Assembly: GCA_021831565.1 (NCBI GenBank)
Contig: JAKBMM010000003.1
Location: 1-64,000, forward strand
DNA from: Planctomycetota bacterium
GTDB lineage: Bacteria; Planctomycetota; Phycisphaerae; WQYP01
Reading direction: 5' to 3'
DNA length: 64,000 nucleotides
Translations under genes and position numbers: made by a program
In this document: positions 1,005 to 42,116 of the stretch, one piece after another
Layout: each line of letters starts with the position of its first letter
Position numbering within the stretch: the first letter of the stretch is position 1
The notes under the pieces: generated by a model
Databases searched by the model: none
The model's input: the letters and a program-made list of their open reading frames with translations, nothing else
Told to the model about the DNA's origin: nothing

Positions 1005-1048
1005 ATTCACCGGCCCGCACGGTCATGCTTTTTAGGAAGGGTTGTTCT

Positions 1049-2287: not shown

Positions 2288-2290
2288 AAT

Positions 2291-2443
2291 GTAACCGTTC
2301 ACGGGCCAAAAACCGCGTAAAATCAAAGAAATAATGTGGAATCTGAAGTTTATGGGGCATAAAAATCACAAAAAAAGTGATCTGCAAGGCAAAAAGTGGC
2401 GTTTTTTTTGCTGATTACGCCACTTTTGCCCGTGAACGGTTAC
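2291..2443. repeat. TIR-bounded structured intergenic element (MITE-like or long hairpin)
   Basis: Perfect 16-bp inverted repeat GTAACCGTTCACGGGC (2291-2306) / GCCCGTGAACGGTTAC (2428-2443) with nested hairpins AAAAGTGGCG..CGCCACTTTT (2392-2401/2418-2427) and ATCAC..GTGAT (2365-2369/2377-2381). Confidence 0.75.
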
Positions 2444-2641
2444 GGCCAGGAAAAGCCGGCGACAAGCCGGAAATTGATATGGCCGCCGCGGCGGCGGAGA
2501 AGCATCAGCGGAAAAAACCGACAATAAACCAGACAGTTTCCGGAGGAAACTAACCATGTGTCGCTTCTTATGAGAGGATAGTTAGCGAGTCGCGCCGGCT
2601 GATGCCACCGGGCGATTCAACTTTGTACTGGAGAAACTTCG

Positions 2642-3754
2642 ATGATCAGAAAAATAAAATTACCTATTATTCTCCCAGCCACAATGTCGCTTTCCATGGC
2701 GATTTTCGCCAGCTTGGCCGCGGGGGCATCAGTCTCCCCCGCGGCCACTTCACAGGCGTTACGTAAGGCCGTGGTGCGGCGGCTTGCGCATCTGCAGAAT
2801 GTGGTTGTCACCTACGACATGGACGTTGATTACCCACCCAACCATCGTATCTCGGAATTTACGCGAAAAATTCTTGCACAGATCAAGAAAGCGCATCCAG
2901 GGGCCCACTTTGGACCACCCCTCCGTGGCCACTACATGTATACCTGTTGCTTTTCCTTCCTTAACGGGCGGATGCGCTATGATAAAACCATGACGCCAGC
3001 GACCGTTGCCAAACTATCGGCGCCGGGCGGCCCGGGCGCTGGCCTTGTCAAGAGTATCCTCACGATCACGCCGGAACGCGCCGAAACCCTGCAATACCAG
3101 TTGCATTTTATGAAGGCCCCGATCGGCACGATTGCGGCCAGAGCCTCTCTGCCCAGTTCCCCACTGCCAATTGTCTGGGCGTTGGGTCTAAGGTCACCTC
3201 CCTTTCCCCCGCACGACGCCGCCCCGCATTGGCTTAACGGGCGGGCAATACGGAAGATAAAGTTTGCAAGAACCAGTCCAGTGACTTTCTCGCTGATGCA
3301 AAGGAGACCCGACGGCTATCGATACCAGTGGCTCTTCCGGACCAAGCCCGCTCTCGAACTTGTCGGGATAATCGCGTCCTTCACCGGTTTTGAACGATAC
3401 CGCCGCATTGGCATTGTACGCTTAAGCATAGGAAAGTGCAGCGACTTTCATAAGGTGGGTGGCTTGCTACTACCAGGCCGCATCGTCGAAACGGGATTTT
3501 TCGGCGGGAAGTACGGTGTACTTTATAACGCAATACTCACCAAAATAAAGTACACGATTGGGGCCGCGGCGAACACGTCCAAGAGTTATTTCATTCTCTG
3601 GCCCACAGGGTCAAGCGTGATCGACGAACGGCTAAACAACCATGTCTTCCACGTCGGGGTTCACCGGACGCGCCTTACTGACAAGGAGATATTCTCTATA
3701 CTCCGGCGACAGGATCACGGCGGCAAAATTAAACCGGCGACAACGCGCCCGTAG
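2642..3754 (+). CDS. hypothetical secreted protein
   Basis: 370-aa ORF with N-terminal signal-like sequence MIRKIKLPIILPATMSLSMAIFASLAAGASV. Confidence 0.7.
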   Translation: MIRKIKLPIILPATMSLSMAIFASLAAGASVSPAATSQALRKAVVRRLAHLQNVVVTYDMDVDYPPNHRISEFTRKILAQIKKAHPGAHFGPPLRGHYMYTCCFSFLNGRMRYDKTMTPATVAKLSAPGGPGAGLVKSILTITPERAETLQYQLHFMKAPIGTIAARASLPSSPLPIVWALGLRSPPFPPHDAAPHWLNGRAIRKIKFARTSPVTFSLMQRRPDGYRYQWLFRTKPALELVGIIASFTGFERYRRIGIVRLSIGKCSDFHKVGGLLLPGRIVETGFFGGKYGVLYNAILTKIKYTIGAAANTSKSYFILWPTGSSVIDERLNNHVFHVGVHRTRLTDKEIFSILRRQDHGGKIKPATTRP

Positions 3755-3862
3755 CATTGGCGACTCGCCCGCCATATCGCGGCGGAAAGCCATGCTTATA
3801 CAAAATTATATTTCCCTGTTTTATCCTTGGATATTGTTGGGGGATGGAGCTACAGTTAATAT

Positions 3863-4117
3863 ATGTTCAATCCCTACGCATTGCTGTTGCCTGTGATTTT
3901 CGGCGGGGTTTTCGTCTTCGCCTTCTGGAAAGCCGCCGACATCGACGAGCAGCCGCGGTGGCTGTGGACCGGCCTTTCGGCGGCGGTCTTCTTTTTTACA
4001 TTCTTTTATATGGGCTGGGGCTATATCGGGAGTTTTTTCGGCCAGATTTTTCTGGCCGCGGCGATCGCCATCGTGCGCGCGGTATTCTACATAATTGAGA
4101 TCAACAAGAAACCATGA
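3863..4117 (+). CDS. small membrane protein, hypothetical
   Basis: 84 aa with two to three hydrophobic segments. Confidence 0.6.
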   Translation: MFNPYALLLPVIFGGVFVFAFWKAADIDEQPRWLWTGLSAAVFFFTFFYMGWGYIGSFFGQIFLAAAIAIVRAVFYIIEINKKP

Positions 4118-4152
4118 CGTGCGCCAACCTCCGGCGGCAAGAGCCATGGGCA

Positions 4153-6255
4153 TTACTTCGTGGCCGGTTTATTTACCATCGGTTGGGACGGCGCAGCGAT
4201 GAAACTTTCAATCGCTTTCACCAGCATCGACGATGGCTGGAACACCCATTGAGGAGCGCCGGCCGCTTGCGGCTCCAACAGCAGGGCATACCAGTGCGGC
4301 CCGGCCGGATTTTTTCCGATGGTTGCGCGGCCCAGGAGTTTGCCCGCCACGGCGGGTTTCCGGGCGGACGATCGTAGATGGGGACATCCGGGCCATATTT
4401 TTCTGTTCCACAATTCAATGGAAACGACCTGTTGCCCGGCCACGCGGGCGGGCGGAATTTTTTTAGCCACGGTTTTCATGGCCGCGGCGGCGCTGGCTGA
4501 TTTTTTACCGGTGGATTTCTCCACAGGCGGATGATGGATCGGCGCGGTGCGCGTATGGGTCGTTACCCGCAACACCACGGCATGGAGGGGATGAATCCGG
4601 TGTGCCTTGAGATACCACTGTTTATTCTGGACGGGATTCAGAGCGTCCAGCAGGTCCTGCACCGCGCCGGCGGGGGCGGCGGTTTTCTTGCGCATCCGGC
4701 GCGTCAACATCCATTTGCTGGAAATGTGAAGCAATCGCACCGATCCAGCACCAACCGGAGAAGTAATCGTTATGGCGGAAACGTTGGGACCGGGGATGGC
4801 GGTCACTATCCGGCTGCGCAGCGCGGTGACGGGCGGCAACAACCTGGTTATCGCCTTGTTGGGAATCAGATAAACACTCGGCCATTGGGGGAGTTTGGCC
4901 GGAGTCCATCCGTTCTTTTGGGATGTTCCCAGAGCAATCACGACGGGGTGAACTTTGTTGGGAATATCCAGCCGCAGAGATTGCCGTGGCGGATTCAGCC
5001 CCAGCTTCTTGAGGTCAACCGGAGCATCGATGAATTTTCCGGCGCGAATTTTTTTTAACTCTTTGAGCACTCTCTGGACAGCAGGAGCGTCGGCCGGCAG
5101 CAGCGGCCCACCCGCAAAGTTTCCGGGCGTTGTGCCCATGCGCCAGGCGCCTTTCTTGTTCTTGCGCAAATATAGAGAAGCGGGTGTGGCCGGGGATATG
5201 CCCACACGCCGCCGCATCGCCAATCGTGTGGCTTTCATAACCTTGGCGCGGGTGAGCGCTTTATCGCGCCAATCGGCGAGCGATTGATCCAGTGATTGGA
5301 ACGTGGTGTTTCGCACGACACACACCGTGGGATTCTGGCTGCTCAGGGCGTAACGAAACTTGTCAGTAAGATCGGTGTATCGACCGAAATGAATAACCAG
5401 CGGCGGCGCAGCCGCCGGGTGGGTTGTCGTCGGCTTTATTTTGGCCGATTTTTTCGGTTTTTTTTCCGACGGAGCCTGGAACCGCACTTCAATAGTCAAT
5501 GGACCCTGTTTCCAAGCGGCGGACTTTTGTGATTCAGATGAAAATCTATGTGCGGTCAACAGTTGGACGTTGCTGAGCCAATTGGCGACTTTGGATTTAT
5601 TCGCCGGAGCCAGAAATGGTTTAGTGATGATCCATCTCTGGCCGTGCCGGACGATGGTGATCGTACCGGTGCGGGATTGAATTCGGATGGACGCCACGCG
5701 CGCGGTATGAAAGCGGGTGAGATTGCGATTGCGGAATTTCATGGACGGGCGTTCCAATCGTCGCAGCCAAGCTGCGCCGACCACATACAGGTAGCGGGAT
5801 TTCATTCCCGCGCGGCACACATAAAGCCGACCGTCAGAATTATGCCGGCCGATGTCGAGGGTATAGGTCTTGCCCGTTTTGTCGGTCAGAGTGAGCACGG
5901 CGCGCGGCGGCGCCAATCCGGCCGCGGCCGGTGAATGACCGCCCGTTTTCTCGATCCTGACCCGATAATGCCAGGAAAGTTTGCGAAGCGTCTGAACCAG
6001 ATCATTGATTGTGTAATCACGCGCCCAGGCGCGCACCGGTCGAATCATGCGCCAATGACGGCCGTGGCGCTCGAACCTTAGTGTCCGGCCATGCGCGGTA
6101 TGAAAAGCCAGAGTGCGAATTGCCGTGGGGCGCGGAGTAAAAACCAGTCTGGTGGTGCGGTGCGGCGCCGGCCTGGGCTGATGAGCCACGTAAAGCACCA
6201 CGCCGGCGAGCACGAGAAGAACCACGAGCATCGCGAGAGTCAGTTTTACATTCAT
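4153..6255 (-). CDS. DUF4340-type protein
   Basis: N-terminal TM, TLDIGRHNSDGRLYV-type motifs; positioned after GldG in an ABC operon, the typical DUF4340 context. Confidence 0.75.
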   Translation of the reverse strand: MNVKLTLAMLVVLLVLAGVVLYVAHQPRPAPHRTTRLVFTPRPTAIRTLAFHTAHGRTLRFERHGRHWRMIRPVRAWARDYTINDLVQTLRKLSWHYRVRIEKTGGHSPAAAGLAPPRAVLTLTDKTGKTYTLDIGRHNSDGRLYVCRAGMKSRYLYVVGAAWLRRLERPSMKFRNRNLTRFHTARVASIRIQSRTGTITIVRHGQRWIITKPFLAPANKSKVANWLSNVQLLTAHRFSSESQKSAAWKQGPLTIEVRFQAPSEKKPKKSAKIKPTTTHPAAAPPLVIHFGRYTDLTDKFRYALSSQNPTVCVVRNTTFQSLDQSLADWRDKALTRAKVMKATRLAMRRRVGISPATPASLYLRKNKKGAWRMGTTPGNFAGGPLLPADAPAVQRVLKELKKIRAGKFIDAPVDLKKLGLNPPRQSLRLDIPNKVHPVVIALGTSQKNGWTPAKLPQWPSVYLIPNKAITRLLPPVTALRSRIVTAIPGPNVSAITITSPVGAGSVRLLHISSKWMLTRRMRKKTAAPAGAVQDLLDALNPVQNKQWYLKAHRIHPLHAVVLRVTTHTRTAPIHHPPVEKSTGKKSASAAAAMKTVAKKIPPARVAGQQVVSIELWNRKIWPGCPHLRSSARKPAVAGKLLGRATIGKNPAGPHWYALLLEPQAAGAPQWVFQPSSMLVKAIESFIAAPSQPMVNKPATK

Positions 6256-6310
6256 GGAGTGGAGCCTCGCTAGTTAGGCCATTGGTCATTATGACCCAAT
6301 GATTGTTGTG

Positions 6311-8428
6311 CTATATCCGTCGGCGAACCAGAAACACGACCAATCCTCCCAAGACGGCAAAAGTCGCCGGTCCGACGAAACTGGCCAGCCGCACGAACAT
6401 TTCCGCGCCGGAAGAAAGCTTGCGAATTCGCAACGCCACGGTGGCGCGCGGGCTTACGGCAATCAGGTGCGATTCGTGAGCCAGCCAGTACATACTGTTC
6501 AGGAACAATTCGGCATTGCCCGGGAAATCGGAAATCACCACGGGTTGACCGCCGGCGAGGCTCAGATAGCCTTCGTTGATCACGCCATTGGCGATAAAAA
6601 GCGGATCACCGATCGCCACGACGCGCGTGGTGAATTTCCGCGCCATCACTCCGATCGGCAAAGGCGACTTGAGGTCGCCCGGCGCGAATCCGGCCCGGGT
6701 AGCCTGGGGCTGCGTGGTTCCCCAGATATTGGTGGAGTTGGCGGTTCGCACCAGCACCTGCGCGACGGTATTTTTCGGAGCGGATGCCAGCGGCTCAATC
6801 ACGGTAGGCGCCAGCAGCGGCGAACCTTCATAGGAGGTGAAAATGGTCCTTAGCGATTCGATCGGTTTGCCAATGGTTGTTTTCGGATAGCTGGAAACGG
6901 CGAACTGGGGTATCAGCACATGAACTCCGGGGTGAACCTGCATGCGCTGTACCACGCTGTAAGTGGAGCGCAATCGAATACCATAAGAAGCCAACATGCT
7001 CTTAAATGGAATATGGCCCTGAGTGGTCATAAGAAGTTGTGCGGGCATGGCGCCCAGCAGGAACATGGCGTTGCCGCCGGCGGAAAGTTGTTTTTTGATT
7101 TCGGTTTCAAGCTGCTGGTACTGCATGAGAGCCAGCATGGGCTGCTGTCCGGAGGGGGGCAGATCCAGCACGACCCAGATAACTCCTTGACCAATGGCCG
7201 GGGGAGCAGTACTGGCGGCGGGAGCCTGCGGGTTCGGTGGGGTTGGTGACCACTGGAAAACCTTGAAGTTGTTCCGGCGGAGAATGCGCGCCGCGTGGCT
7301 GAATGGGCCGCCCCGGGAGATCAGGTTCTGTGGATCGAGACTGACAAACACCACCTTGGGCGGATGTTTCTGCGTCATGGCCAGGAGAGCGGCGTTGACG
7401 GCCTGTTCTCCCTCAAAAAGATAATGGATGCGACCGCTGACGCCCTTGCGCGGCAGGAAAAGTTCGTTGCGGGTGAGTACCCTGGCGTTGTGCGGGCCCA
7501 TAAGCACCAGGGAGTCCGGGGAAAGGTTCCGGAGAACCCGGCTGGATTTTACCGGTTTAAGAAGAGTAAGGGTGTTGATGTACGCGGTCAGCGAGACCGC
7601 CCGTTTTTTTATATCAGCCGTGTTCTTTTTGAGCCAGGCTTGCACAGCGGGTCCAAATTCGGCGCGAATTTTCTTTTCGGAAATCCTCTGGAGATTGTCC
7701 TGAATGTTCCGCAGGGCGCTGGTGATTCGCCGGATCAGGCCCGGCCAGTCGGGCAAGGTGCTTTTGATCTGGCGGGCGACGCGCCGCTGGGTGCGACGCA
7801 TCAGCCGGGGAAGATAGTCGGAAAACACGCTGGAAAGAACGATGTAGTGGGCCAATTCGCGGCGGTTCCGAGCCACCGCGGCCTGGCCGGAGAGTGCCCG
7901 GATACCTTTCGCCCGCGTCTTGAAAAAGGCCAGCAAGCGCCGGGCAAGGGGATCAAATTGCCGCAGAGCCTTCCGGTACGGCTGGAACTGATCGCCAAAA
8001 CGATGGCGCAGTTGTACCAGCAGAGCGTGGCGCGAATGCGGTTTGAATATTTTCACGCGGTGGGATGCCTGGGCGTATTCTTTCATAAGCCGCTGGACCT
8101 TCAGCCCGTCGGCCCGCTCCGCCGGATCCGCCGCCAGGCTGGTCGGAAACAAATTAACCAGGAAATAGGTCTTTCCGGAACGGTCGATCTGGCGAAGCAG
8201 ATCGTGCGTGCGCGGCGAAAGGGAATATATTCCACCGGTGGTGCAGTCTCTGGAGTAGTTGAATTTTACGGAAAGCCAATCCGCCAGTGCCACGACCGCC
8301 ACCACGGCGAGTACCATGATCGCGGTGTTCGAGCCGTACATCCACCGCCTCTGGCGGACGGTAAATACCCGTGGCGGGGCGTTCCTGGCCGCGGTCCGCG
8401 GCGGGTTGGTCTTGTCGGGTTGCGTCAT
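6311..8428 (-). CDS. GldG-family ABC-type uncharacterized transport protein
   Basis: N-terminal TM, 'DWLSVKFNYSRDCTTGGIYSLSPRT' motif typical of the GldG/DUF4350-like family, C-terminal TM with VRRR. Confidence 0.85.
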   Translation of the reverse strand: MTQPDKTNPPRTAARNAPPRVFTVRQRRWMYGSNTAIMVLAVVAVVALADWLSVKFNYSRDCTTGGIYSLSPRTHDLLRQIDRSGKTYFLVNLFPTSLAADPAERADGLKVQRLMKEYAQASHRVKIFKPHSRHALLVQLRHRFGDQFQPYRKALRQFDPLARRLLAFFKTRAKGIRALSGQAAVARNRRELAHYIVLSSVFSDYLPRLMRRTQRRVARQIKSTLPDWPGLIRRITSALRNIQDNLQRISEKKIRAEFGPAVQAWLKKNTADIKKRAVSLTAYINTLTLLKPVKSSRVLRNLSPDSLVLMGPHNARVLTRNELFLPRKGVSGRIHYLFEGEQAVNAALLAMTQKHPPKVVFVSLDPQNLISRGGPFSHAARILRRNNFKVFQWSPTPPNPQAPAASTAPPAIGQGVIWVVLDLPPSGQQPMLALMQYQQLETEIKKQLSAGGNAMFLLGAMPAQLLMTTQGHIPFKSMLASYGIRLRSTYSVVQRMQVHPGVHVLIPQFAVSSYPKTTIGKPIESLRTIFTSYEGSPLLAPTVIEPLASAPKNTVAQVLVRTANSTNIWGTTQPQATRAGFAPGDLKSPLPIGVMARKFTTRVVAIGDPLFIANGVINEGYLSLAGGQPVVISDFPGNAELFLNSMYWLAHESHLIAVSPRATVALRIRKLSSGAEMFVRLASFVGPATFAVLGGLVVFLVRRRI

Positions 8429-8479
8429 AATCGGATCGTCTCCTGGCCGGCAGGGGAACCTGCCGAGGGGGGCAGGCTC

Positions 8480-9226
8480 TCAGCGCCACTTGCGGCTTTC
8501 GATGACCACATAGGTCAAAAACAGAAAAAGGAATGTCCCGCTGAGGAAATAGACCACGTGTTCGGTGTCTATGACGCCGCGGGCGAAATTCGCCATCTGG
8601 GGTTCGATGGCCAAGTAGTTCAGCAGGTGTTGGATCCACCCCGCCCACGCCCAGGAACGGCGTATATAAATGGAAAGAAGCGAGGCGACCCCCTGGCAAA
8701 GAATTCCCAGCGTTACCAGCGTGACACAACTGCTCATGGCCGCAAGAATCTGGTGCTCGGTGCAGGCGGAAAAAAACAGACCGATGGCCACCATCATCGC
8801 GCCCATGAGCAGCAATCCGAAGTAACTGGTGAGCACAGGCATGTAATCGGGGCGGCCGAATAGAGAGAGAATGATGACGAATACAAAACTCGAGGCGATC
8901 AGGGCGCTGTAAAACGCCATGGCGCCCAGAAATTTTCCCAGCACAATCTGCAGCTCGGTCACGGGGCCGGTGCGGAGCGCTTCCATGCGGCCCGAACGGT
9001 ATTCCTCGGAGAACAGCGACATGGTCATGAACGGAACCAGAAAAATCAGAATCAGGTGGTTCCATTGGAACATGGGACCGGGATCGGCCAACTGCCCCGG
9101 CTGGAAAACCATCAGCGCGAAAAGCAACCCCACGAACAGGAGGTACAGCGCCAACACAATGTACCCGATGGGCGAATAAAACAGCCCGCTAAGTTCGCGA
9201 CGGGCGATGGCCAGGGTTTGCGACAT
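8480..9226 (-). CDS. ABC transporter permease (GldF-like)
   Basis: MSQTLAIARRELSGLFYSPIGYIVLALYLLFVGLLFA; multiple TMs. Confidence 0.9.
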   Translation of the reverse strand: MSQTLAIARRELSGLFYSPIGYIVLALYLLFVGLLFALMVFQPGQLADPGPMFQWNHLILIFLVPFMTMSLFSEEYRSGRMEALRTGPVTELQIVLGKFLGAMAFYSALIASSFVFVIILSLFGRPDYMPVLTSYFGLLLMGAMMVAIGLFFSACTEHQILAAMSSCVTLVTLGILCQGVASLLSIYIRRSWAWAGWIQHLLNYLAIEPQMANFARGVIDTEHVVYFLSGTFLFLFLTYVVIESRKWR

Positions 9227-9245
9227 TCGATGATACCTCTTGCAC

Positions 9246-10214
9246 TTACGCGGCGACGGCGCCGGGATCGGTAATCTGAACAAAAAATTCCTCCAGCGTG
9301 CCGCCGGCGGCCCGGAGTTCCCGCAGCGCCCAGCCGCGCTGCAGAATGGTTGCGGCGATCTGTTCTTGGAGAGAGCCGTCGAGCTTGCCGACGACCTGCA
9401 GAACGCAGACCGGCCCATCCGAGACGATCCGCGCCTGCTCCACCCCCGGCAGGCCGTCCAAGGCGCTGCGGACCTGGCCGGCCGGGCCGCGGACTTCCAC
9501 CAGCAAGCCGGCCTCGGCGCCTCCGCGTCCGGCCGATTGCCGTTTAAGCTCGGCGGGCGTGCCCTGGGCGAGAATTTTTCCTCGTCCGATGATAATCACC
9601 CGTTGGCAGATCAGTTCCACTTCCGAAAGAATGTGCGTCGAAAGCAAAACCGTATGCTGACCGGCCAAGTTGGCGATCAGCTTGCGGGTCTCCCGAATCT
9701 GGGCCGGATCCAAACCCACCGTAGGCTCGTCGAGCACCAATACCGGTGGATTGTGGAGCAACGCATCGGCGATTCCCAGGCGCTGGCGATATCCCTTGGA
9801 AAGCTTTCCCACCAGCCAACGGGTCCGATCCGAAAGCCAGCACATTTCCAACACCTGGGGAATTCTTTCGCGCAGCCGGCGGTGATCCATACCCCGCAGT
9901 CGGCCGCGATAGCTTAGATACTCCTGCACGCGCATTTCCGGATACAGCGGCGTGCTTTCCGGCAAATAACCGATGTTTTGTCGAACTTGCAACGACTGGT
10001 GAAATACGTCGAACCCGGCGACCTTCGCCTGGCCGCCGGTGGGGGGCAGGTAGCAGGTGAGCATCCGGATGGTGGTGGTTTTACCCGCGCCGTTGGGGCC
10101 CAGGAAACCGACAATGGATCCGCTTTCCACCGTGAAACTGATGTTGTCGACGGCAAGGAACTTGCCATAGGTCTTGGTGAGCCTGTCGACGATAATTTCC
10201 GCGGGATGCGGCAT
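9246..10214 (-). CDS. ABC transporter ATP-binding protein (GldA-like)
   Basis: Walker A GPNGAGKTTT, signature LSKGYRQRLGIA, Walker B VLVLDEPTVGLDP. Confidence 0.95.
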   Translation of the reverse strand: MPHPAEIIVDRLTKTYGKFLAVDNISFTVESGSIVGFLGPNGAGKTTTIRMLTCYLPPTGGQAKVAGFDVFHQSLQVRQNIGYLPESTPLYPEMRVQEYLSYRGRLRGMDHRRLRERIPQVLEMCWLSDRTRWLVGKLSKGYRQRLGIADALLHNPPVLVLDEPTVGLDPAQIRETRKLIANLAGQHTVLLSTHILSEVELICQRVIIIGRGKILAQGTPAELKRQSAGRGGAEAGLLVEVRGPAGQVRSALDGLPGVEQARIVSDGPVCVLQVVGKLDGSLQEQIAATILQRGWALRELRAAGGTLEEFFVQITDPGAVAA

Positions 10215-10469
10215 ACCATGTCCTCCTGGCGCCGGGTGGTCGAACGCCGCTTACGAACAGGGGCGCTGTTTCCCGATAGCCCCTGACGATAGAGATACAG
10301 TACCTACCGGTCTATTTACGAATTGTCAACAATGTTGGTTTGACTATATTTGGTTTGACCTATGAGTTTGGATTTGGCTTTCCGTTGGATTCATTTGACA
10401 CGGGCGGCGGCGGCGGATACGAATAATGCATGGAAGCGGAGAGGTGGTCTTGTTGCATGGGAGGCCTTC

Positions 10470-10688
10470 ATGAAGCGCCGAGTTGTTTTCGTGTTCTTGG
10501 CGGTACTAGGTGTTTCGTTTCCGATGTTGGGAGGCTGTCAGACGCTAACCGACACGCCGGGAGAAAACGCCGCGCGCGTCGGCCACACCATGGCGACCGA
10601 TTGGCATGCGGTCCCGGATGCCGCCGAACATGTTATGTTACTGGATCGTCCCATACAGTTGTCGCAGGCGCCCGTTCCGGAGCGCTGA
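10470..10688 (+). CDS. small lipoprotein, hypothetical
   Basis: MKRRVVFVFLAVLGVSFPMLGGC lipobox. Confidence 0.6.
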   Translation: MKRRVVFVFLAVLGVSFPMLGGCQTLTDTPGENAARVGHTMATDWHAVPDAAEHVMLLDRPIQLSQAPVPER

Positions 10689-10829
10689 GGTGGTTCGTTT
10701 GGCGAGCTTTAGGTCGGTACACTGTTGGCATGAAGCCTTCGTCCATTGTTGCCCGTGGAAAGGGATCATGAGGGCCTCGCCACCTTCTACCTATCACAGG
10801 TTCATAGGCGGTGGCGCGGCGGTAGTGTT

Positions 10830-11291
10830 ATGTTTCGGGTTCCAAGCGGTAGAAAACGCAGCCGATGGGAACCAAGGTTCGGCCACGTCGGTCCCAATAT
10901 GACGCCGATGGTGGACGTGACCATGGTCATCCTGATTTTCTTCATGCTGGGCAGCTCCTTCGCCAGTCGGGCTTGGTATCTCACCAACAACATACCGGCT
11001 ATCAAGGGCGGCCTGGCCAACACACCCGCCAAGGCCATGCCCGTCACGCGCCTGGAAATCAGACTTCGGCAGCGCGGTACCCATACCATGGCGGTGATCG
11101 GCGTGTTCCAGACGGAAGATCTTTCCGGCCGGCTCGCCCGCTGGCTGCGGCAGAAAAAGAAACTCCTCGGTAAAAAAACGCAGGTTTTGCTTGTTCCCGG
11201 CAACAACGTGCCGTACCAGGATGTTCTGACCGTCTACAGCGACTGTGTACAAGCCAAGTTTCACCATGTGGCGTTCGGATTGCCCCGCTAA
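10830..11291 (+). CDS. ExbD/TolR-family protein
   Basis: NMTPMVDVTMVILIFFMLGSSF single TM with the ExbD-type conserved Asp. Confidence 0.85.
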   Translation: MFRVPSGRKRSRWEPRFGHVGPNMTPMVDVTMVILIFFMLGSSFASRAWYLTNNIPAIKGGLANTPAKAMPVTRLEIRLRQRGTHTMAVIGVFQTEDLSGRLARWLRQKKKLLGKKTQVLLVPGNNVPYQDVLTVYSDCVQAKFHHVAFGLPR

Positions 11292-11327
11292 GGCGGCGGA
11301 TACAAAATTATTGAGAGTATCCTGACG

Positions 11328-14012
11328 ATGTCGCTGCGCCGATTGATCGACATGTTAAACCTGATGGCGGCGGGCCTTGCGTTATTGATGCCGGCGATGG
11401 CGGGTTTATCCGCGTCGATAGCTCCCGGCGCGGCATCCGCCGCCAAGCCGGATCAAAACACCGCCAAGATCATCCTGGCGGCGGGGAATTCCGCACGCAT
11501 CGCCAGGGATACGCAACTGGCGACCATGCTGATCGAGAAGAAATCAATCGGCGCCATTGCGCGGAAAATCCAAACGGCGCATGACCGGCCCCGCCGGGCG
11601 CTTTTCGAAGCCGCGCTGATTTACTGCCGGTGGCATAACTACCGGAAGGATCCCGCGCAACTCAAGAAACTCGGCCGGGAATATCTGGCCGATGTGCGTA
11701 CCTGCGCCGCCTGGGGCGGCGCCGCCGTGGCCCCGGCGTGGGCGCTGGACCAAGCCAGGTTTATCCTGGTCCATTTGACCACCGGACCGGTCAATCGCAT
11801 TGAGTATTGGTCCGCGCTGCCGGCGGATCGCCGCGCGCTTCTACCGACGGCCCGGCTCGCCCGCCAGTTGCTGCGGATGGCGCAAAGCCATTTCCAGCAT
11901 ATCATCAATAAACTTAATAATGTAACTTCCTTTACTTTATCCAGCCGTCACTTGTACATCCAAGCGCTCCAGGGGCGGACCCAGGCGCGGTATTACCTGG
12001 CTTTCGCCGATTATTTTCTGGGATTATCGCTGCCGCCCGCCGATCCATCGCGTTGGCGGTTGTTTCTCCGGGTCGTCGCATCGCTGAACCGGTGGACGAG
12101 CAGTTCCGGCGGCGGCGTGTTTTACCCGGCTGTGCTTTTGAGTGGGAAGGCGAATCTGCATGCCGGGTTCTTCCAGCGCGCGATGGCGGATTTCACCAAA
12201 GCCCGGGCGACGGGGGCGCCCCTCTGGATTCAATACGAGGCCCGCTACCAGCAAGTCGTCGCGCTGCTTCGTTCCGGCCACTACCACAAGGCGCGGAGCG
12301 AATGGGCTTTGTTTGCCCAATGGATCAGGTCAACAAAAAACGCCCAAACCGTCGGCGCGCGCATGGGTGTAAAGCTGCTGGCTTATCGAATTGCCATCGC
12401 CAAGGCGCGTACCATCGCCAATCCCACCCGGCGCGTCCGGGCCTTTCGCAGCGCCATGGAAATACTGCTGGCGATTATCCGCAAAGCTCCGCAGTATCAG
12501 AAGCTTATTTTTACCCATCTGGCGCACGAACTTCCCGCCAAGCCTGATTGGGCCGACACGCCACCCCTGCAGATTCTGGCTTATGCCTGGGTCAAGGCCC
12601 GCCGGTCCGATTCCGGTAGTCATCAGAATTCTTTGGGTTCTCTGGCGGCGTCCCAGCGGCTGCTTCGGAACAAAAACACCCCTCCGATGATTCGGGCCGA
12701 GGCGTTGTTGGTCGCCGGCATGGCGTATGCCCGGCTGGGTCGGCTTGAGAACGCCGCGCTGATGAATCTCGATTTTGTCAGCCTGGCGCCCAATGATCCG
12801 CGCGCCAAAATGGTTCTAAACTTGGCGCTGGCACAGCTTCTGCGGCTCCCGGCGGCGTCCGCTTCCTCGCCTGCGGTTGTTAAACTTACCCGGCAAGCCT
12901 TACGACTCGCATTTGTCCGCTACCACGAGACCCAGTGGAGGTTTGCTTATGCGATGCAACTGGCGCAGGCCAAAGAGTACGCCCGAGCCGAGAAACTTTT
13001 CGAGCGGGTGTCGGCGCCGGAACCGTTCTATTTGGACGCGCGCTATCAGTTGGTTCGTATCGCCGCCGCCCGGCTGGCCCAGGCGATGCGACAAAAAACT
13101 TCCCTGCCCGCGCGGCAAAAATTCGCCCGCGTTCTCGTGGGTTCGTGCCGCCGCTTCCTGCATCTTCTGGCGCACCCGCCGAAGGGCGCCGGTTCCGCGA
13201 CCCTCAAACGGACCGCGGGCTATCGGGTGAGGGTTCTCATGCTGGAAGCGGGCGCGGCGCTGGACCCGCTGCGCGAGCCGCATACCGCCGGCCGGATTCT
13301 CAACCGGTTGGACAAACTTCATCCCGCGCTTTCGCCCCGTATCCAGGGCATTCTGCTTCGCTACCGCATCCGGCAGTGTGAAATGGGGGACCCATCGGTC
13401 CAGATACTTCCCTTGATCCGGCGATATGCCGGCACGTCTTCCCAGAACGTCCGGGGCATCATCATGGGGCTTATCGGCCAGTATGACCGGGAGAGCCGGC
13501 GGGCTCGCCGCATCGACCCGGGCAAGGCGCGCCGTCTGGCCGGCGAGGCGGCCGTGCTGCTGCAAGCTCTCCTGGGCCATATCGTCAAAGAACCGGGGAA
13601 TCATTCCAGGGAAATCTACGCCTATGAGCAAATTCGCGCCAGGGAACTCATCCGCGCCGGGCACGACCGCCAGGCGATGGCCCTGTACAAGAAACTTTAT
13701 CGCCGGCGGAGATCGGATCTGCGCAACTTCATTGGTGTGGCCCGCGCGGCTTACGCCATCGGCGGCGCCCACAACCTGCGTTACGCCCGCCGGAAATTCG
13801 TGCGGATCATTCCACACCTTGCGCCCGGATCCAACATCTTCTGGTCTTGCTATCTTTATCTGATTCGCGCCAATCGGAAGCTCGGCGAATACTCCAAGGC
13901 CACGCGCAACAAGCTCCGCGAACTTTGGACGATTTATGGTTCGTCCATCGGCGGAAAGCGCTACCACAAGCAATTTCTGGCGCTGCTGGCGCAATACCAT
14001 GTTGCCAAATGA
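11328..14012 (+). CDS. large TPR-like hypothetical exported protein
   Basis: 894-aa helical-repeat-rich ORF with signal peptide. Confidence 0.7.
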   Translation: MSLRRLIDMLNLMAAGLALLMPAMAGLSASIAPGAASAAKPDQNTAKIILAAGNSARIARDTQLATMLIEKKSIGAIARKIQTAHDRPRRALFEAALIYCRWHNYRKDPAQLKKLGREYLADVRTCAAWGGAAVAPAWALDQARFILVHLTTGPVNRIEYWSALPADRRALLPTARLARQLLRMAQSHFQHIINKLNNVTSFTLSSRHLYIQALQGRTQARYYLAFADYFLGLSLPPADPSRWRLFLRVVASLNRWTSSSGGGVFYPAVLLSGKANLHAGFFQRAMADFTKARATGAPLWIQYEARYQQVVALLRSGHYHKARSEWALFAQWIRSTKNAQTVGARMGVKLLAYRIAIAKARTIANPTRRVRAFRSAMEILLAIIRKAPQYQKLIFTHLAHELPAKPDWADTPPLQILAYAWVKARRSDSGSHQNSLGSLAASQRLLRNKNTPPMIRAEALLVAGMAYARLGRLENAALMNLDFVSLAPNDPRAKMVLNLALAQLLRLPAASASSPAVVKLTRQALRLAFVRYHETQWRFAYAMQLAQAKEYARAEKLFERVSAPEPFYLDARYQLVRIAAARLAQAMRQKTSLPARQKFARVLVGSCRRFLHLLAHPPKGAGSATLKRTAGYRVRVLMLEAGAALDPLREPHTAGRILNRLDKLHPALSPRIQGILLRYRIRQCEMGDPSVQILPLIRRYAGTSSQNVRGIIMGLIGQYDRESRRARRIDPGKARRLAGEAAVLLQALLGHIVKEPGNHSREIYAYEQIRARELIRAGHDRQAMALYKKLYRRRRSDLRNFIGVARAAYAIGGAHNLRYARRKFVRIIPHLAPGSNIFWSCYLYLIRANRKLGEYSKATRNKLRELWTIYGSSIGGKRYHKQFLALLAQYHVAK

Positions 14013-14125
14013 GACGTCAAACCCTGTCAAGCGGCCTAAACGGGTTTATTGTGGACTTTTTACCCTGTCCAGTATGATGGGGCGAAACCATTCCCATGTG
14101 GAAGCTTTGATCTATAATAAACAAG

Positions 14126-14380
14126 GTGAAGATCATGGATATGACAATTTCCATTCCGAAAAAAGTGGCTGATAAGTTGCGTCGGCGCGCCAGAGCCAGC
14201 GGCCAGCCGCTGCCTGCGTACGCGTCCAGAATTGTGGAACGGGCCGTCCTAGGACCGACGCTGGAAGAACTTCTGGCCCCTGTGCAGGCGGATTTTGCCC
14301 GCAGCGGCATGACCGAGAAACAATTGCTCGGCCTGGGCCGCAAACTTCTGGATAAAATCCGGGCGGAGAAAAGCAATTGA
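14126..14380 (+). CDS. ribbon-helix-helix-like antitoxin
   Basis: MDMTISIPKKVADKLRRRARASGQPLPAYASRIVERAV; directly upstream of and overlapping the PIN ORF. Confidence 0.65.
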   Translation: MKIMDMTISIPKKVADKLRRRARASGQPLPAYASRIVERAVLGPTLEELLAPVQADFARSGMTEKQLLGLGRKLLDKIRAEKSN

Positions 14381-14878
14381 TGCCGCCGCCTCCACCAAGG
14401 GCCATCTACGATGCTATGGTTATGCTTCAATGGGCGGCATTGCCGCCCCAAGGGCCACGCGATCATGCCACCGTCACAGCCTTGTCCACCGGACGGTTAC
14501 GCCTGGCGATGAGCCGGCGGCTGCTTGATGAATTGCGAGGACTTTTCTTCCGCCCGGAACTCCAGGCGCGATTGCCCAGTCTCACGCCCGCACACGCCGC
14601 GCTCATCTTTCAAAAGACATTGGAGTTCGCCGACTGGTTCCCGAGCGTCCCGGCCCGATTTTCTCTCCCGCAGCATCCCAAGGATAATCACCTTTTCGAC
14701 TTGGCCATCGAGTCCCAGGCGGCCTATCTGGTCACATGGGAGACACGGTTGCTCAAACTCCGCGAAGCACACACCGCTGAAGCCAAACGGCTGCGGCAAC
14801 TGGCCCCCCAACCTGACTATCCTCACTCCCGGCCAACTCGCCGAAACGCTCAAGCTTACAACTCAACGCCCGAAATAA
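14377..14878 (+). pseudogene. PIN-domain toxin, frameshifted near the C-terminus
   Basis: Frame 1 carries YDAMVMLQWAA..DNHLFDLAIESQAAYLVTWETRLL; the typical PIN C-terminus NLTILTPGQLAETLKL is in the +1 frame after a C6 run (14804-14809), ending at the TAA at 14876-14878. Confidence 0.65.
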
Positions 14879-15271
14879 TTCCGGCCGCTGGGCGGCTAAA
14901 AAGAAAATCCCCAACACGGGCCTCTTGTGCATCAATCCCGACACATCGGGACCATTGGCTGCCGCGTGGAACCCAGGAAAACCCACAAAAAAGCCTTGGG
15001 TTACTCGTATGTGCAAAATAAGCAGATACAAAATCATCGCCATTTCCAGGTGATTAGACACCCGCAGCCTCCTCGCTTTTCTTACCGAAAAGCTTGCTGG
15101 CGTTCCTGCCGATGGTGCAACTATCGATGTTTTCGGGCGTTTAACCTCGTGATGATCTCCGTCAGTCGTTGACGGTGCACGAGGACGTGGTGTTGAGTCG
15201 AACAGGGCCTGCTCGACTATAGAGCTGAACGGTCTTATGGCTCGGATGAGCGAGGAACGACACGTTACCGC

Positions 15272-17101
15272 GTGAAAGCCGATATGGATGATGTCGCTGC
15301 GATCTTGGAACAGGCCGGTGTGGTTGATGCCGCGGGCGCCGGGAAGCTGCGCGCAGCGGCGCGGGCCGGGCCGCTGGATGAAGCAATTCGCCAAGCCGCA
15401 CCTGAGGCGGCGGCGCTGCGCACGCTGGCGGGGCACTTCGACGTACCGTACCTCGACGTGGTGGACGGCGCGGTGTCGAAGGAGTTTCTCCAGCAGTTTC
15501 CGATACGTATCCTGCTGAAGTTCCACCTGTTGCCTCTGCGCGAAGAAGACCGCACGCTGCTGGTGGCGACCAGCGATCTATTTGACACGGCCGGCCTCGA
15601 CGAGTTGCGCCTGGCGATCGGCCGTGACGTACGGGGCGTGCTCTGTTCCCGGGGTGAGATTGATCGTTGCACCAAGCGGCTCTTGGGCGTGGGAGCCGAC
15701 ACTCTCCAATCCCTGGCTGGAGAGGCGGACGTCAACGTCATTGAGAACGGCAGCGCCGACGAGGACATGGACCTGACGGTTGCCGCGGAAGACGCTTCCA
15801 TCATCCGGTTCGTCAACCAGGTGTTGGCGGAAGCCCTGGAACTGCGGGCCACCGATGTGCATGTGGAGCCATTTGAGAATCAGTTGCGGGTGCGCTACCG
15901 CATTGATGGCGTGCTACAGGAAGCGAATATTCCCTCCGACGTGCGGCGCTATCACGCGGCGATCGTCTCCCGCCTGAAGATTTTGAGTCATCTGGACATC
16001 GCCGAGAAGCGTCTGCCGCAGGATGGACGCATCCGCGTGAAGGTGGCGGGGCGCGAAATCGACTTGCGGGTCTCGGTGATACCGATGATTCACGGCGAGG
16101 CGGTGGTGCTGCGCATTCTCGACCGCGGCGACGCCCTGCTGGGGCTGGAACACCTGGGGATGTCCCAGCGTGATCGCGACCTGTTCGAGCGGGTCCTGGA
16201 GTTGCCGCACGGCATCGTTCTGGTGACCGGCCCGACCGGTTCCGGCAAAACCACCACGCTTTACGCGGCGCTGTCTCGCATCAACGGCATTGAGCGCAAA
16301 ATTATTACCATTGAAGATCCGGTGGAGTACCAGCTTCGCGGGGTCAATCAGATCCAAGTAGCGCCAAAGGCGGGCCTGACGTTTGCGACAGGTCTGCGCT
16401 CCATCCTCCGGCATGACCCGGACGTGGTGCTGATCGGCGAGATTCGGGATGGCGAGACGGCTAAAATTGCCGTGCAGGCGTCGCTCACCGGCCATCTGGT
16501 CTTCAGCACGCTGCACACCAACGACGCCCCCAGCGCCTCGACGCGACTGATCGACATGGGGGTCGAACCGTACCTGGTGGCGTCGAGTCTGGAAATAGTG
16601 TTGGCGCAACGCCTGGTACGGTTGATCTGCCCGCAGTGCAAGGAGGCTACGCCGACCCACGATCTGGAGACGTTACGGGCGGAGTATGGCGCAGTGGTGC
16701 CGGAGACCGCCTTCCGCGGGAGCGGCTGTCGGGCCTGCATGGGCACCGGCTACCGTGGCCGGCAGGGAGTCTTCGAGATGATGGCGGTGACGGAGGATAT
16801 CCGGGCGCTGATCCTGGAGCGGGCTTCGGTGGGACGGATGCGCTACGCGGCCAGGCAACAGGGGATGAAGGGACTGCGGGAGGACGGTTGGCGTCTGGTG
16901 CGCGACGGCCGCACCACCATCGAAGAGGTCGCGCACAATACGATGGATGAGCAACACGCCTTAGGCAAGGCGCCGGCGGACGACGCCGTGGGCGCCACCG
17001 GGAACAACACCGGCGCGGCCCGGCGCGAACCGCGGGCGGGAGTGGGTTTCGAAAACGCCACTTCCGGCCGATGTGAAAGAGTGGTCCGCAGTCAGCCGTA
17101 A
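15272..17101 (+). CDS. gspE: type II secretion ATPase GspE
   Basis: GPTGSGKTTTLYAAL, EDPVEYQLRGVNQIQV, LRSILRHDPDVVLIGEIRDGETA, zinc-ribbon CPQC..CRAC. Confidence 0.97.
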   Translation: MKADMDDVAAILEQAGVVDAAGAGKLRAAARAGPLDEAIRQAAPEAAALRTLAGHFDVPYLDVVDGAVSKEFLQQFPIRILLKFHLLPLREEDRTLLVATSDLFDTAGLDELRLAIGRDVRGVLCSRGEIDRCTKRLLGVGADTLQSLAGEADVNVIENGSADEDMDLTVAAEDASIIRFVNQVLAEALELRATDVHVEPFENQLRVRYRIDGVLQEANIPSDVRRYHAAIVSRLKILSHLDIAEKRLPQDGRIRVKVAGREIDLRVSVIPMIHGEAVVLRILDRGDALLGLEHLGMSQRDRDLFERVLELPHGIVLVTGPTGSGKTTTLYAALSRINGIERKIITIEDPVEYQLRGVNQIQVAPKAGLTFATGLRSILRHDPDVVLIGEIRDGETAKIAVQASLTGHLVFSTLHTNDAPSASTRLIDMGVEPYLVASSLEIVLAQRLVRLICPQCKEATPTHDLETLRAEYGAVVPETAFRGSGCRACMGTGYRGRQGVFEMMAVTEDIRALILERASVGRMRYAARQQGMKGLREDGWRLVRDGRTTIEEVAHNTMDEQHALGKAPADDAVGATGNNTGAARREPRAGVGFENATSGRCERVVRSQP

Positions 17102-30454: not shown

Positions 30455-32911
30455 TCAGGGCGCTTGGCGGGCGCATCCAGTTGACCCAATCCGCATTGTC
30501 CGCGCCGCCCGCAAGCGTCGCGCCATCCGAAACACGGTCTCCGGGGATCGAAGCGGTTTTAAGGCAAAACCGTGGAACGTCACCCAATGCTGCGGACGGG
30601 TGATCCAGACGTAGCGTTTCACATCGCTGGGCGATACAAGAACGTGTTCAAGCCCGTACTCTCCGTTTGCCGCTGCTCTTGATATCTGAAATCGAAGGAA
30701 AGGAAATTGGTTGGGGAGTACTTGTAAGCCGGTTTCTGGAGCCACGAGCCTTCCCTCGCGGTCCACAACGCCCACGGCAATTACTTGATTGGGGTACGGA
30801 TCTTTGGAGCAACTCCACCCCAACTGGCTTCCAACGATCTTATTATGGGCGTTAATGAGCGGGGAAACCCAGGCCAGCGTGAACTTACAACCCTTGTACA
30901 AAAAGCTCCGCCGAAACGTGCCATAAACAGCAGCGGTTCCAAGAATCTTCCATGTGCCGGAATCCAGCCCAACGTGCAGCGTACCGGTATGAGGGTGCGG
31001 GAGCTTAACCCACTCACCCCCTCTTGTTTCGAGCGGATGCTCCCGGCCGGTATTGGGGAAATCGGACAAATTTTCCGGCAATTGGATGTCCAAGAGCACG
31101 GCCATGTTTCCATCCGAAAGGTAATAAGCATGGCGAAAAGGAAAACCGAGAATCCCGTACTGGACATTCCGGAAGCTATATATATCCCCTGGCTTCAGCT
31201 TCAGGCCGTGCGGCCTACAACCCCTGGTCCAGCCGGGCATTGCGTTCCCATCCGGCGTCCAGGGGCAAAATTCCCATGTCCCGCTGGTCACGCCACAGAG
31301 CGTTACCACCGCTCCACCGGGCAGAGTTTTTGACCACCGCGAATTGGGCCCAAGGGGTGCGACTGGATGCGCCTTGGCAAATTGATTCCACGCCACAGAA
31401 TCCGCGGCGATCTTTTCCAGCCCGGCGGATCCGCTACGGATGTACCGTCGCAGTCTGATAATTCTGGTTATTGCGGAGACCAGCTCGGCCGGATACCGCT
31501 CCACGTCGAAAACCACCGCGCTGTACCAGTGCCGCCCCTTGGAATTGGCGGCGCTTCGCAGCAGCACGACCGCATGGTCGGGCGCAATCTTTACCGCCGC
31601 AGTGTAAATGTAAGGGGTATGCACAATTTTATGGTTGACAACCATTAGCTTTGAATCTGCGTCAAAACGCACGCCCACTCGCATGAAATTAGCGTATGCC
31701 CTGGCGTTACAATGGAAGGACAAGTCAGATGTCTCTTGCGGAAAGGCAAACTTGGCGCCCGAAATTTTGAATTCGTGAAAAAAAAGCAAAGAATGGGATA
31801 CTACGCTATGGTTGGGTTGGAGTGCCGCCGAACGCCAGATGAGGTTGCGGCCCAATAAAACCCTTCCTCTATCCGCTTGCGATCTGGCCAGCGCACGCAC
31901 TCTATGGGCGGAAATATCGTACGCCAATACGCCGCCGGGCTTGCCGGATAAAAATTTTCCATCGGTTTGCACCGCCCACACGAAATTACCCCGCACCATC
32001 ATTTCATACGCCACACATATCAACACGCCGGTTTGCGATCCGGTGGAATTGTCGGTCAGAGCGTCTGCCGCCGGGACCGTCTTTGTCGGTGTTGGATTTA
32101 CCGTTGCGTGTGACGCCTTCAGCGCTATCGCCGCCGTCGCAATGGCCAGCGTCACGGCAGCCGCACCCATGATTGCCGGGATATGCGCCGCATGAAACGC
32201 CACCTTTCGTGCGGCATGGGCAATCCCCAGCCCCACCGGAATTTTTCCACTCACACCCTGCAACACCCGCCCAATACGCTCACTGGATGCAGTCCCGACT
32301 CCGGAGGCCAACAGCGCCGCCACCGCGACGTTATCCAGCGGCATGTCATGCCACGCCATGATTTTGCGCAATTTTCCCACCGCCCGCGTGATGCGTTTTT
32401 CCGCCGCCGCTTCTGATACGCGCAACTGCTGGGCAACCTGCCGGGCGCTGCAACTTTGGAAGAACCGCGCCACCAGCACATCGCGGTCACCGGTGGAGAG
32501 TTTTTGCATGGCCGCATCCAGGACCGTGAGTTGTTCGGCATTGGATTCCACCGCCGGCCCGGCGGATGCGCGCATTTCTTCACTTCGCATGGCTGCCGCC
32601 TTTCGTTCGCGATTTTTCAGTCTCCGCTCGAATTTCCGTATATCGTTGCAGGCATAATGCGTCGCCCGGACCAACCAGCCTCCAACGGGCCGTTTTCCAT
32701 CGCCAAGGTGCTTGCGCCTTCGCCACATGGCGATAAAGACCGCCTGCGTCGCATCCTCAGCCAGATTTGCGTCCCCAAGTTGCCGGCGCGCCATGCCATA
32801 AACCCAGCCACTGTGGGCGGCTACAACACTTTTAAATGGATCATGTTCAAAGGGTTTGCCGCCGGTCGCAATATCTGTTTGTTCCGTCATCGCCTGCATC
32901 TCCAATTCCAC
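30455..32911 (-). CDS. ECF sigma-70 factor fused to a TM and a large C-terminal domain
   Basis: Sigma2 HSGWVYGMARRQLGDANLAEDATQAVFIAMWRR; sigma4 LSTGDRDVLVARFFQSCSARQVAQQLRVSEAAAEKRITRAVGKLR; TM MGAAAVTLAIATAAIAL; about 550 further aa. Confidence 0.85.
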   Translation of the reverse strand: MELEMQAMTEQTDIATGGKPFEHDPFKSVVAAHSGWVYGMARRQLGDANLAEDATQAVFIAMWRRRKHLGDGKRPVGGWLVRATHYACNDIRKFERRLKNRERKAAAMRSEEMRASAGPAVESNAEQLTVLDAAMQKLSTGDRDVLVARFFQSCSARQVAQQLRVSEAAAEKRITRAVGKLRKIMAWHDMPLDNVAVAALLASGVGTASSERIGRVLQGVSGKIPVGLGIAHAARKVAFHAAHIPAIMGAAAVTLAIATAAIALKASHATVNPTPTKTVPAADALTDNSTGSQTGVLICVAYEMMVRGNFVWAVQTDGKFLSGKPGGVLAYDISAHRVRALARSQADRGRVLLGRNLIWRSAALQPNHSVVSHSLLFFHEFKISGAKFAFPQETSDLSFHCNARAYANFMRVGVRFDADSKLMVVNHKIVHTPYIYTAAVKIAPDHAVVLLRSAANSKGRHWYSAVVFDVERYPAELVSAITRIIRLRRYIRSGSAGLEKIAADSVAWNQFAKAHPVAPLGPNSRWSKTLPGGAVVTLCGVTSGTWEFCPWTPDGNAMPGWTRGCRPHGLKLKPGDIYSFRNVQYGILGFPFRHAYYLSDGNMAVLLDIQLPENLSDFPNTGREHPLETRGGEWVKLPHPHTGTLHVGLDSGTWKILGTAAVYGTFRRSFLYKGCKFTLAWVSPLINAHNKIVGSQLGWSCSKDPYPNQVIAVGVVDREGRLVAPETGLQVLPNQFPFLRFQISRAAANGEYGLEHVLVSPSDVKRYVWITRPQHWVTFHGFALKPLRSPETVFRMARRLRAARTMRIGSTGCARQAP

Positions 32912-32982
32912 GCCGCCGCTTACCTGTTCCTGCTACTATATGGCCGCCGCCCGCAATTCCGGACATAATATGCTCCACGCGG

Positions 32983-33000
32983 TCCCGATCCCCATCGGGA
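32983..33000. repeat. TCCCGATccccATCGGGA palindromic repeat
   Basis: Inverted repeat in the intergenic region upstream of coaE. Confidence 0.7.
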
Positions 33001-33065
33001 TTGAGACGTGTCGTCCGTTCAAAGTGGAATATGGTGTCCCAGCGGGTGGTGCGGAGTATAATTCA

Positions 33066-33737
33066 ATGCCGTCGAATCAGTCGCCCGCTGAAAAACGATA
33101 CCCCAAGCCCATCATCGGCTTGGTGGGCGGGATTGGGGCGGGCAAAAGCACTGTTGCCGGGGAACTGGAAAAGCTTGGATGCGCGGTGATTGATAGCGAC
33201 AAGCTCGCCGCCGCGGCGCTCCAGGAACCGGTTATCCAGGCCCAACTGCGGCAATGGTGGGGTGAAGAGATTTGTCCGGCCAATGGGTCCATCAACCGCC
33301 AGGCGCTGGCGGCGAAGGTATTCGCCAATCCCGGTGGCTATCGGGAGTTGGAGCGGCTAAACGGTCTGATCCATCCCCGAGTCGCACAAATGCGACGGGA
33401 AAAGATGCTCCAAGTGGAGCATAATCCCTTGGTCGTAGGCGTGGTATGGGATTCGCCTCTACTCGTTGAAAGCGGTTTGCAGAACGAATGCGACGCCATT
33501 ATTTTCGTAAAAGCGTCGGAGGAGATGCGGCGTAAGCGTGTGTTTCAGACTCGCGGTTGGGATGACCGGGAAATCAGGCGAAGAGAAAAATTTCAGGCGC
33601 CACTGGACAAAAAGATGGAAATCGCGGATTATATAGTGGATAATGACGGCGACTGGGCGTCGAGCGGTACCCAAACCTGCCGTGTGCTTTCCCAGATTTT
33701 GGCGGAATTCGGGCGGATACCGCCCAGCGAGGAATAA
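33066..33737 (+). CDS. coaE: dephospho-CoA kinase
   Basis: IIGLVGGIGAGKSTVAGELEKLGCAVIDSDKLA. Confidence 0.92.
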   Translation: MPSNQSPAEKRYPKPIIGLVGGIGAGKSTVAGELEKLGCAVIDSDKLAAAALQEPVIQAQLRQWWGEEICPANGSINRQALAAKVFANPGGYRELERLNGLIHPRVAQMRREKMLQVEHNPLVVGVVWDSPLLVESGLQNECDAIIFVKASEEMRRKRVFQTRGWDDREIRRREKFQAPLDKKMEIADYIVDNDGDWASSGTQTCRVLSQILAEFGRIPPSEE

Positions 33738-41174: not shown

Positions 41175-41540
41175 GTCGGATTGAAAAATTTGGATAGAAA
41201 AATTTTTGTGATTATGAACAATCAACCCAAACCATGTTTGCCATAACTAACAAATTTATCAAGAGTTATATAAAATGAATACGAAATTAAAAATATCCCA
41301 ACCGGCGATAAATCATTCTTGAAATAATCATGCCTGTTTGGAACGAAAACGTAATGGCAACAAGGGCTGCGGATACGATTTGCTTGTAGATTCGAATATA
41401 GGCTTGGTCCGTTTCCTTTCCGCCAACGCGGCATGGCGCGCCCTTGTCACGACGCGAGCCTTGCCCCAATATCTAAATACCCGTCGGCATACGGAAAGTT
41501 TCGGCTCCAGCGCGTCTGGACCGACGGCGGAGATCAGCGC

Positions 41541-42116
41541 GTGAGTGTCAGCCCGACCAATAACGATCTATTCTATCGTCTTGTCTGGCCGCACCGGGCC
41601 GACGTCTTACGCGCCGCTCTACTGTTGACCCACCACGAAAGCGATGCTCAGGACATCACCCAGGAAACCATCATCAAAGCATGGCGGGCGATCGACCGTT
41701 TCGATTCAAAAACCGGCGCCATGCTCCCCTGGCTTTTGACCATCCTGCGTCATTGCTGGGTGGATCGACTGCGCGCCGCCGGCCGGCACGGACGGGAGAT
41801 CAGTCTGGATGATTGGCCGGAAGATCCGCCGGCTCCCGTCGATACCGGCCTTTCCGGCGCCGGTGAAATCACCAATCCCGATGAGTTGCTCAATACATTT
41901 TCCGATCAGGAAATCATTGCCGCTCTCCGCTCCCTCCCGGCGGAAATGCGCTGGACGCTGCTGCTGGTGGACGTGGCGCAGTTTGATTACGAAATGGCGG
42001 CGCAAACGCTCGCCGTGCCGGTCGGAACGGTCCGCTCTCGCGTCCACCGCGGCCGCGCCATGCTCCTGGTCGCACTGACCGCCCGCGGCGCCGCGTCAAA
42101 ATCGCCGGGAGCGTAG
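41541..42116 (+). CDS. ECF-type RNA polymerase sigma factor
   Basis: GTG start; LTHHESDAQDITQETIIKAWRAIDRFD; LRSLPAEMRWTLLLVDVAQFDYEMAAQTLAVPVGTVRSRVHRGR. Confidence 0.9.
   Translation: MSVSPTNNDLFYRLVWPHRADVLRAALLLTHHESDAQDITQETIIKAWRAIDRFDSKTGAMLPWLLTILRHCWVDRLRAAGRHGREISLDDWPEDPPAPVDTGLSGAGEITNPDELLNTFSDQEIIAALRSLPAEMRWTLLLVDVAQFDYEMAAQTLAVPVGTVRSRVHRGRAMLLVALTARGAASKSPGA

Follow-up and report, generated by a model that had tools for sequence, protein, structure and literature searches.

Few sigma factors have been studied as little as ECFs with C-terminal extensions or a membrane tether (PMC8103513, PMC8999054). Those fused to a transmembrane (TM) segment include IutY of Pseudomonas putida (ECF243) and the actinobacterial ECF48, ECF52 (SCO4117) and ECF53 (PMC8999054). 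IutY is the only experimentally characterised TM-fused ECF in that review; its release by Prc and RseP is proven, and proteolytic release is expected for ECF48, ECF52 and ECF53 as well (PMC8999054). A different extension occurs in ECF57 (Singulisphaera acidiphila WP_015250107.1), whose C-terminal WD40-like repeats are thought to act by protein interaction (PMC8999054).

The sigma factor gene described here lies in a planctomycete DNA stretch of 64,000 nucleotides, the whole of which is called the window. As in IutY, ECF48, ECF52 and ECF53, a sigma factor, a TM segment and an extracytoplasmic part are predicted to form one chain. Unlike these proteins, the window protein has no FecR-like or zinc-finger anti-sigma domain that we could find, carries a different ectodomain module and belongs to another phylum. 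It shares with ECF57 the C-terminally extended ECF architecture but gives no WD40 Pfam match. Singulisphaera acidiphila is itself a planctomycete.

Single-chain tethered and C-terminally extended ECFs are thus known already (IutY, ECF52). As far as the databases and literature searched show, four things are new: what the ectodomain module is, its presence on BlaR1-like peptidases and kinases as well, the exchange of C-terminal parts among sigma-TM paralogs and a shared upstream element. In a literature search that covered part of the work on ECF classification, we found no described ECF-extension family containing this C-terminal domain; a numbered group for this sigma factor may already exist.

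Gene and domain order

The gene and the parts of its product are as follows.

30455..32911, minus strand: whole ORF, 818 codons from GTG, intact open frame
32636..32824, minus strand: sigma-70 region 2, residues 30-92 (Pfam Sigma70_r2, PF04542, 5.4e-10)
32369..32521, minus strand: sigma-70 region 4, residues 131-181 (Pfam Sigma70_r4_2, PF08281, 3.4e-9)
32183..32356, minus strand: juxtamembrane linker, residues 186-243 (sequence, alignable with paralogs)
32120..32182, minus strand: predicted TM helix, residues 244-264 (Kyte-Doolittle mean 2.19, position conserved in homologs)
31460..32026, minus strand: proximal C-terminal region, residues 296-484 (alignments A2, A7, A8)
30539..31345, minus strand: distal module, residues 523-791 (hhalign E 1.9e-13 and 1.9e-18, controls negative)
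30455..30538, minus strand: short C-terminal tail, residues 792-818 (alignment)

A first-pass annotation had proposed this reading frame and described it as complete sigma2/sigma4 regions, a single TM and a large C-terminal domain in one chain. The frame is real; its strand, which that annotation did not give, is minus, and the plus strand of the same interval contains stops throughout. The ATG at codon 8 (base 32890, GGAG upstream) is the likely start, because of the GGAG spacing and the alignment with a homolog (L035 9347-11878), and would yield a product of 811 aa. The two Pfam matches, together with NCBIfam TIGR02937 (sigma70-ECF, 1.6e-18), bear out an ECF sigma factor with both regions present. 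The domain order agrees with the proposed single chain, the C-terminal domain being presumably extracytoplasmic.

The single TM also looks real. Residues ~244-264 form the sole strong hydrophobic stretch of the protein on the Kyte-Doolittle scale. Of 39 sigma-domain matches that have 60 or more residues after them, 37 are followed by a hydrophobic 19-mer (mean >= 1.6) in the ~140 residues after the match, most commonly starting 55-70 residues on. Since the segment recurs at a similar offset, we regard it as a conserved feature of the class and not a chance stretch. Counts of K+R around the TM were uninformative; they reveal no positive-inside bias, which we count against our best reading. The linker (residues 186-243) has no Cys and therefore no zinc-binding anti-sigma motif, and between region 4 and the TM there was no Pfam match, whether to a FecR-like or a zinc-finger anti-sigma domain or to anything else.

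This combination of sigma factor, TM and C-terminal part occurs once in its own genome, where four other matches span the sigma part only; region 2 of sigma-70 is matched 15 times there in all. A search of a plasmid collection returned five records, again matching the sigma part only.

The C-terminal part and its distal module

The C-terminal part comprises ~530 residues and gave no significant Pfam, NCBIfam or PDB sequence match, significant PDB sequence relatives being confined to the sigma part. Its proximal region (residues 296-484) is predicted to start with a b-a-b-b-a succession and to continue as beta-rich. AlphaFold models reached a mean pLDDT of 64 with pTM 0.70 for residues 296-484, and a mean pLDDT of 56 for residues 296-818 from an alignment of 6 sequences; with these models (mean pLDDT 56-64), Foldseek found no PDB match at E<=0.001. 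A degenerate secretin-like domain, considered for residues 296-484, was dropped, as neither Pfam nor Foldseek supported it.

Structure prediction brought no fold match. HMM-HMM comparison established homology for residues 523-791. The window-type module (6 sequences), compared by hhalign with 11 modules from M56-kind proteins, scored 98.0% (E 1.9e-13, 217 columns), and 99.1% (E 1.9e-18) when sigma-fused forms of another family were added. Reversed and column-shuffled controls stayed below 1% probability. This module of ~240 aa sits after the last predicted TM in M56/BlaR1-like receptor peptidases, in two Ser/Thr kinases and in other ECF sigmas of Planctomycetes, and among its carriers are proteins with segments such as LPNGVTVELVGVCEHPSEGKQWWKPDG, VAAGQW and FQFQTRPYEWVEFKEVSLRP. 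Hence the distal half of the C-terminal domain does exist without sigma, on receptor peptidases and kinases. The first-pass description of the domain as uncharacterised holds as regards family matches, but the domain is not a one-off. The "Trp/Gly-rich repeats" noted there are not repeats as far as we could see; the two SGTW patches are different conserved positions of one module.

Among the carriers scanned with Pfam, BlaR1 peptidase M56 (PF05569) was matched in 13, and in one of these a penicillinase repressor domain lies at the N-terminus; L112 and L139 gave a protein kinase match, while L102, L105 and L120 matched sigma-70 regions. The window protein has in common with the M56/BlaR1-like receptors of Planctomycetes the module placed behind the last predicted TM; it differs from them in output, a sigma factor instead of a membrane peptidase, and has no PF05569 match. 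In 29 module-bearing frames that were examined, the first module is never followed by a predicted TM, an independent argument for an extracytoplasmic module. Part of the outside domain looks like an interchangeable receptor part, since planctomycete BlaR1-type proteases and protein kinases carry it too.

How far the module reaches depends on the profile. The full C-terminal profile matched the window genome alone among 392 genomes of the phylum, and a wider reach was obtained only with submodule profiles or profiles including distant sigma-fused members. A profile of residues 642-791 reached 35/397 class genomes at E<=0.05. The sigma-type profile reached 38/397 class genomes at E<=0.001, with whole or nearly whole-length matches in two families (f1 and f6). 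When the class was searched with the C-terminal part as a single sequence, the matches outside genus g3 (see below) were weak (G391, G285, G005); the frames of G391 and G285 were inspected and judged unrelated.

Some carriers deserve separate mention. Both kinases, L139 2044-3612 (G010, from the window's own family) and L112 2902-6972 (G371), have the module after TM segment(s). L111 208-5553 (G171) unites a penicillinase repressor (BlaI-like) domain and an M56 receptor in one frame, with copies of the module further on. The sole match of the M56-linked module in a viral collection is L162 (IMG/VR contig IMGVR_UViG_3300047160_006359), perhaps host sequence in a viral bin.

Relatives and exchange of C-terminal parts

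The sigma half has many homologs across 101 genomes. Over the C-terminal part, the relatives in those genomes belong to the same family but to its genus g3 (G003, G024, G025, G026), and the named records among the relatives are Planctomycetota MAGs. Genomes of genus g3 contain several paralogs each, some of them clustered (G025:C174, G013:C166), in which a related sigma-TM half is joined to differing C-terminal parts. At least four C-terminal types occur on similar sigma-TM halves: A, as in the window, B, C and D. When the sigma parts are placed on a tree, its well supported branches require at least two label changes each for A, B, C and B2; a type B protein of G013, for instance, joins type C sigmas with support 100/98. 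The C-terminal types are thus at odds with the sigma tree, and we conclude that C-terminal parts have been exchanged relative to it.

The two clusters, L035 (G025:C174) 637-14601 and L036 (G013:C166) 2626-15418, hold four sigma-TM genes each within ~14 kb, with mixed C-terminal types. Type C is represented by L035 12196-14601, L036 10402-12414 and L049 3131-6187; matches to CarboxypepD_reg and AhpC/TSA (thioredoxin-fold) lie in the C-terminal part of the first and the last, and the L036 protein aligns with both. The C-terminal end of type B (L035 6753-9152, L036 2626-4920, L037, L038) resembles, by eye, the LxxAYxxxHGxFPxxLxxL...DPFTGKPFxY pattern of pseudopilin-like planctomycete proteins. 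Turnover in the family is visible at L039 552-3677, a type A gene split by an internal stop, and near L036 ~10059 (minus strand), where a copy of the upstream element described below precedes an apparent sigma remnant.

The window copy itself might be a remnant in decay, the family being active in genus g3. It is single in its genome, a type A C-terminal part is absent from G001 (the second genome of its genus), other family copies such as L039 carry an internal stop, and the tail (residues 792-818) lacks an extra tail domain that alignment places in L041, L042, L043 and L039. The homolog L035 9347-11878, from a paralog-rich genome, is nevertheless likewise without the tail domain, and the window frame is open over all 818 codons behind an intact upstream element; decay is thus very improbable in our opinion.

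The conserved upstream element

A further feature precedes the sigma gene and is common to its paralogs.

32936..32965, minus strand: conserved promoter-like element TGTCCGGAATTGCGGGCGGCGGCCATATAG, upstream of the sigma gene

The element, of ~30 bp, has the form TGTCCnGAAT...GGCGGCCATATA. The gapped motif was found in 9/15 upstream regions of family genes, against at most 3 in shuffled controls. Over 30 bp, the window copy shares a mean identity of 72% with 11 other family copies, rising to 90% with type A genes of G025 and G026, while in the same comparison the 60 bp upstream share 25%, the chance level, and the 60 bp downstream 33%. Identity of the element is also kept towards copies in another genus. 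Searched as TGTCCnGAAT-N13-CATA, it is the sole zero-mismatch match in the window; the whole genome has few matches to the pattern and the full form once, at this gene. Most of the high-scoring copies in the loci retrieved are found 30-145 nt upstream of a family sigma gene. Others stand before short frames, and at least one of these frames resembles the remnant of a sigma gene.

That the element is common to paralogs and has its full form once in the genome suggests that the sigma gene is autoregulated through it, and we infer that the element is read by this sigma. Duplication of genes copies upstream DNA too, however, and the TATA[AG][CT] end is sigma-70-like in several copies. The element could accordingly be an ordinary housekeeping promoter, or the site of another regulator, carried along with duplicated genes whose sigma factors do not regulate themselves. 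We think this rather unlikely, given an upstream flank at chance identity beside an element conserved even between genera, and the single full-form copy at this very gene.

A model of signalling

Taken together, we consider it somewhat more likely than not that the gene encodes an ECF sigma receptor in a single chain, tethered to the membrane and autoregulated, with an ectodomain that can be exchanged and a sigma part probably freed by proteolysis. The sigma regions would lie in the cytoplasm, anchored to the membrane via one TM helix, and the C-terminal part outside, where it would respond to a signal from the envelope or the environment. The distal module of this part would be drawn from a stock of ectodomains that Planctomycetes also put on BlaR1-type peptidases and Ser/Thr kinases. 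Upon a signal the chain would most likely be cut, by site-1 and then intramembrane site-2 proteolysis; the freed sigma would join RNA polymerase and act on its own promoter via the upstream element, among other targets, producing positive feedback. No anti-sigma signature is present that would account for silencing of the tethered sigma, and this is counted against the reading, as is the lack of a fold match.

Alternatively, the sigma may never be cut free. An outside ligand would then alter the juxtamembrane linker, so that the membrane-bound sigma is switched on or masked conformationally, like ECF41 and CorE. Other ECFs with C-terminal extensions have been shown to be controlled by conformation (PMC8999054), and nothing found here indicates a cleavage site. 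Extensions of the ECF41/CorE type, however, are described without a TM as sensing link, and the proven TM-fused case, IutY, is the released one (PMC8999054). Permanent tethering consequently appears improbable to us. We favour proteolytic release, at about even odds when taken by itself, because of the IutY precedent and the M50 site-2 protease homologs in the window genome, with conformational control as its main rival; the M50 proteases say little, since 14/14 control genomes have them too.

In a wider and more tentative proposal, one stock of extracytoplasmic sensor modules might serve three membrane outputs in Planctomycetes (ECF sigma, BlaR1-type protease, Ser/Thr kinase), the sigma version in the window's family being a paralogous network of single-chain receptors with exchanged ectodomains, all acting on one promoter type and feeding back through it. 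Sharing of the module with BlaR1-like proteases and kinases offers a way to ask what it senses, because any of the three outputs could serve as reporter. Since similar sigma-TM halves have exchanged ectodomains, the separation of sensor from output is open to direct testing, and in the upstream element a candidate promoter is already at hand for transcription assays.

Gene neighbourhood

The adjoining genes look like the housekeeping genes aroK, coaE and rho, and no anti-sigma gene was seen among them, in line with the earlier statement that there is no separate anti-sigma. Relatives keep the order coaE-rho; no aroK was found next to coaE in those of their stretches that were seen, and G001 gave no coaE match. 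The coaE ORF of the window (32856-33737, plus strand) probably starts near 33075, as homologs align only from about residue 64-82 of its 293-codon frame. A second protein with sigma-70 region 2 is encoded in the window at 41433-42116 (plus strand); with 227 aa, it is of ordinary ECF size.
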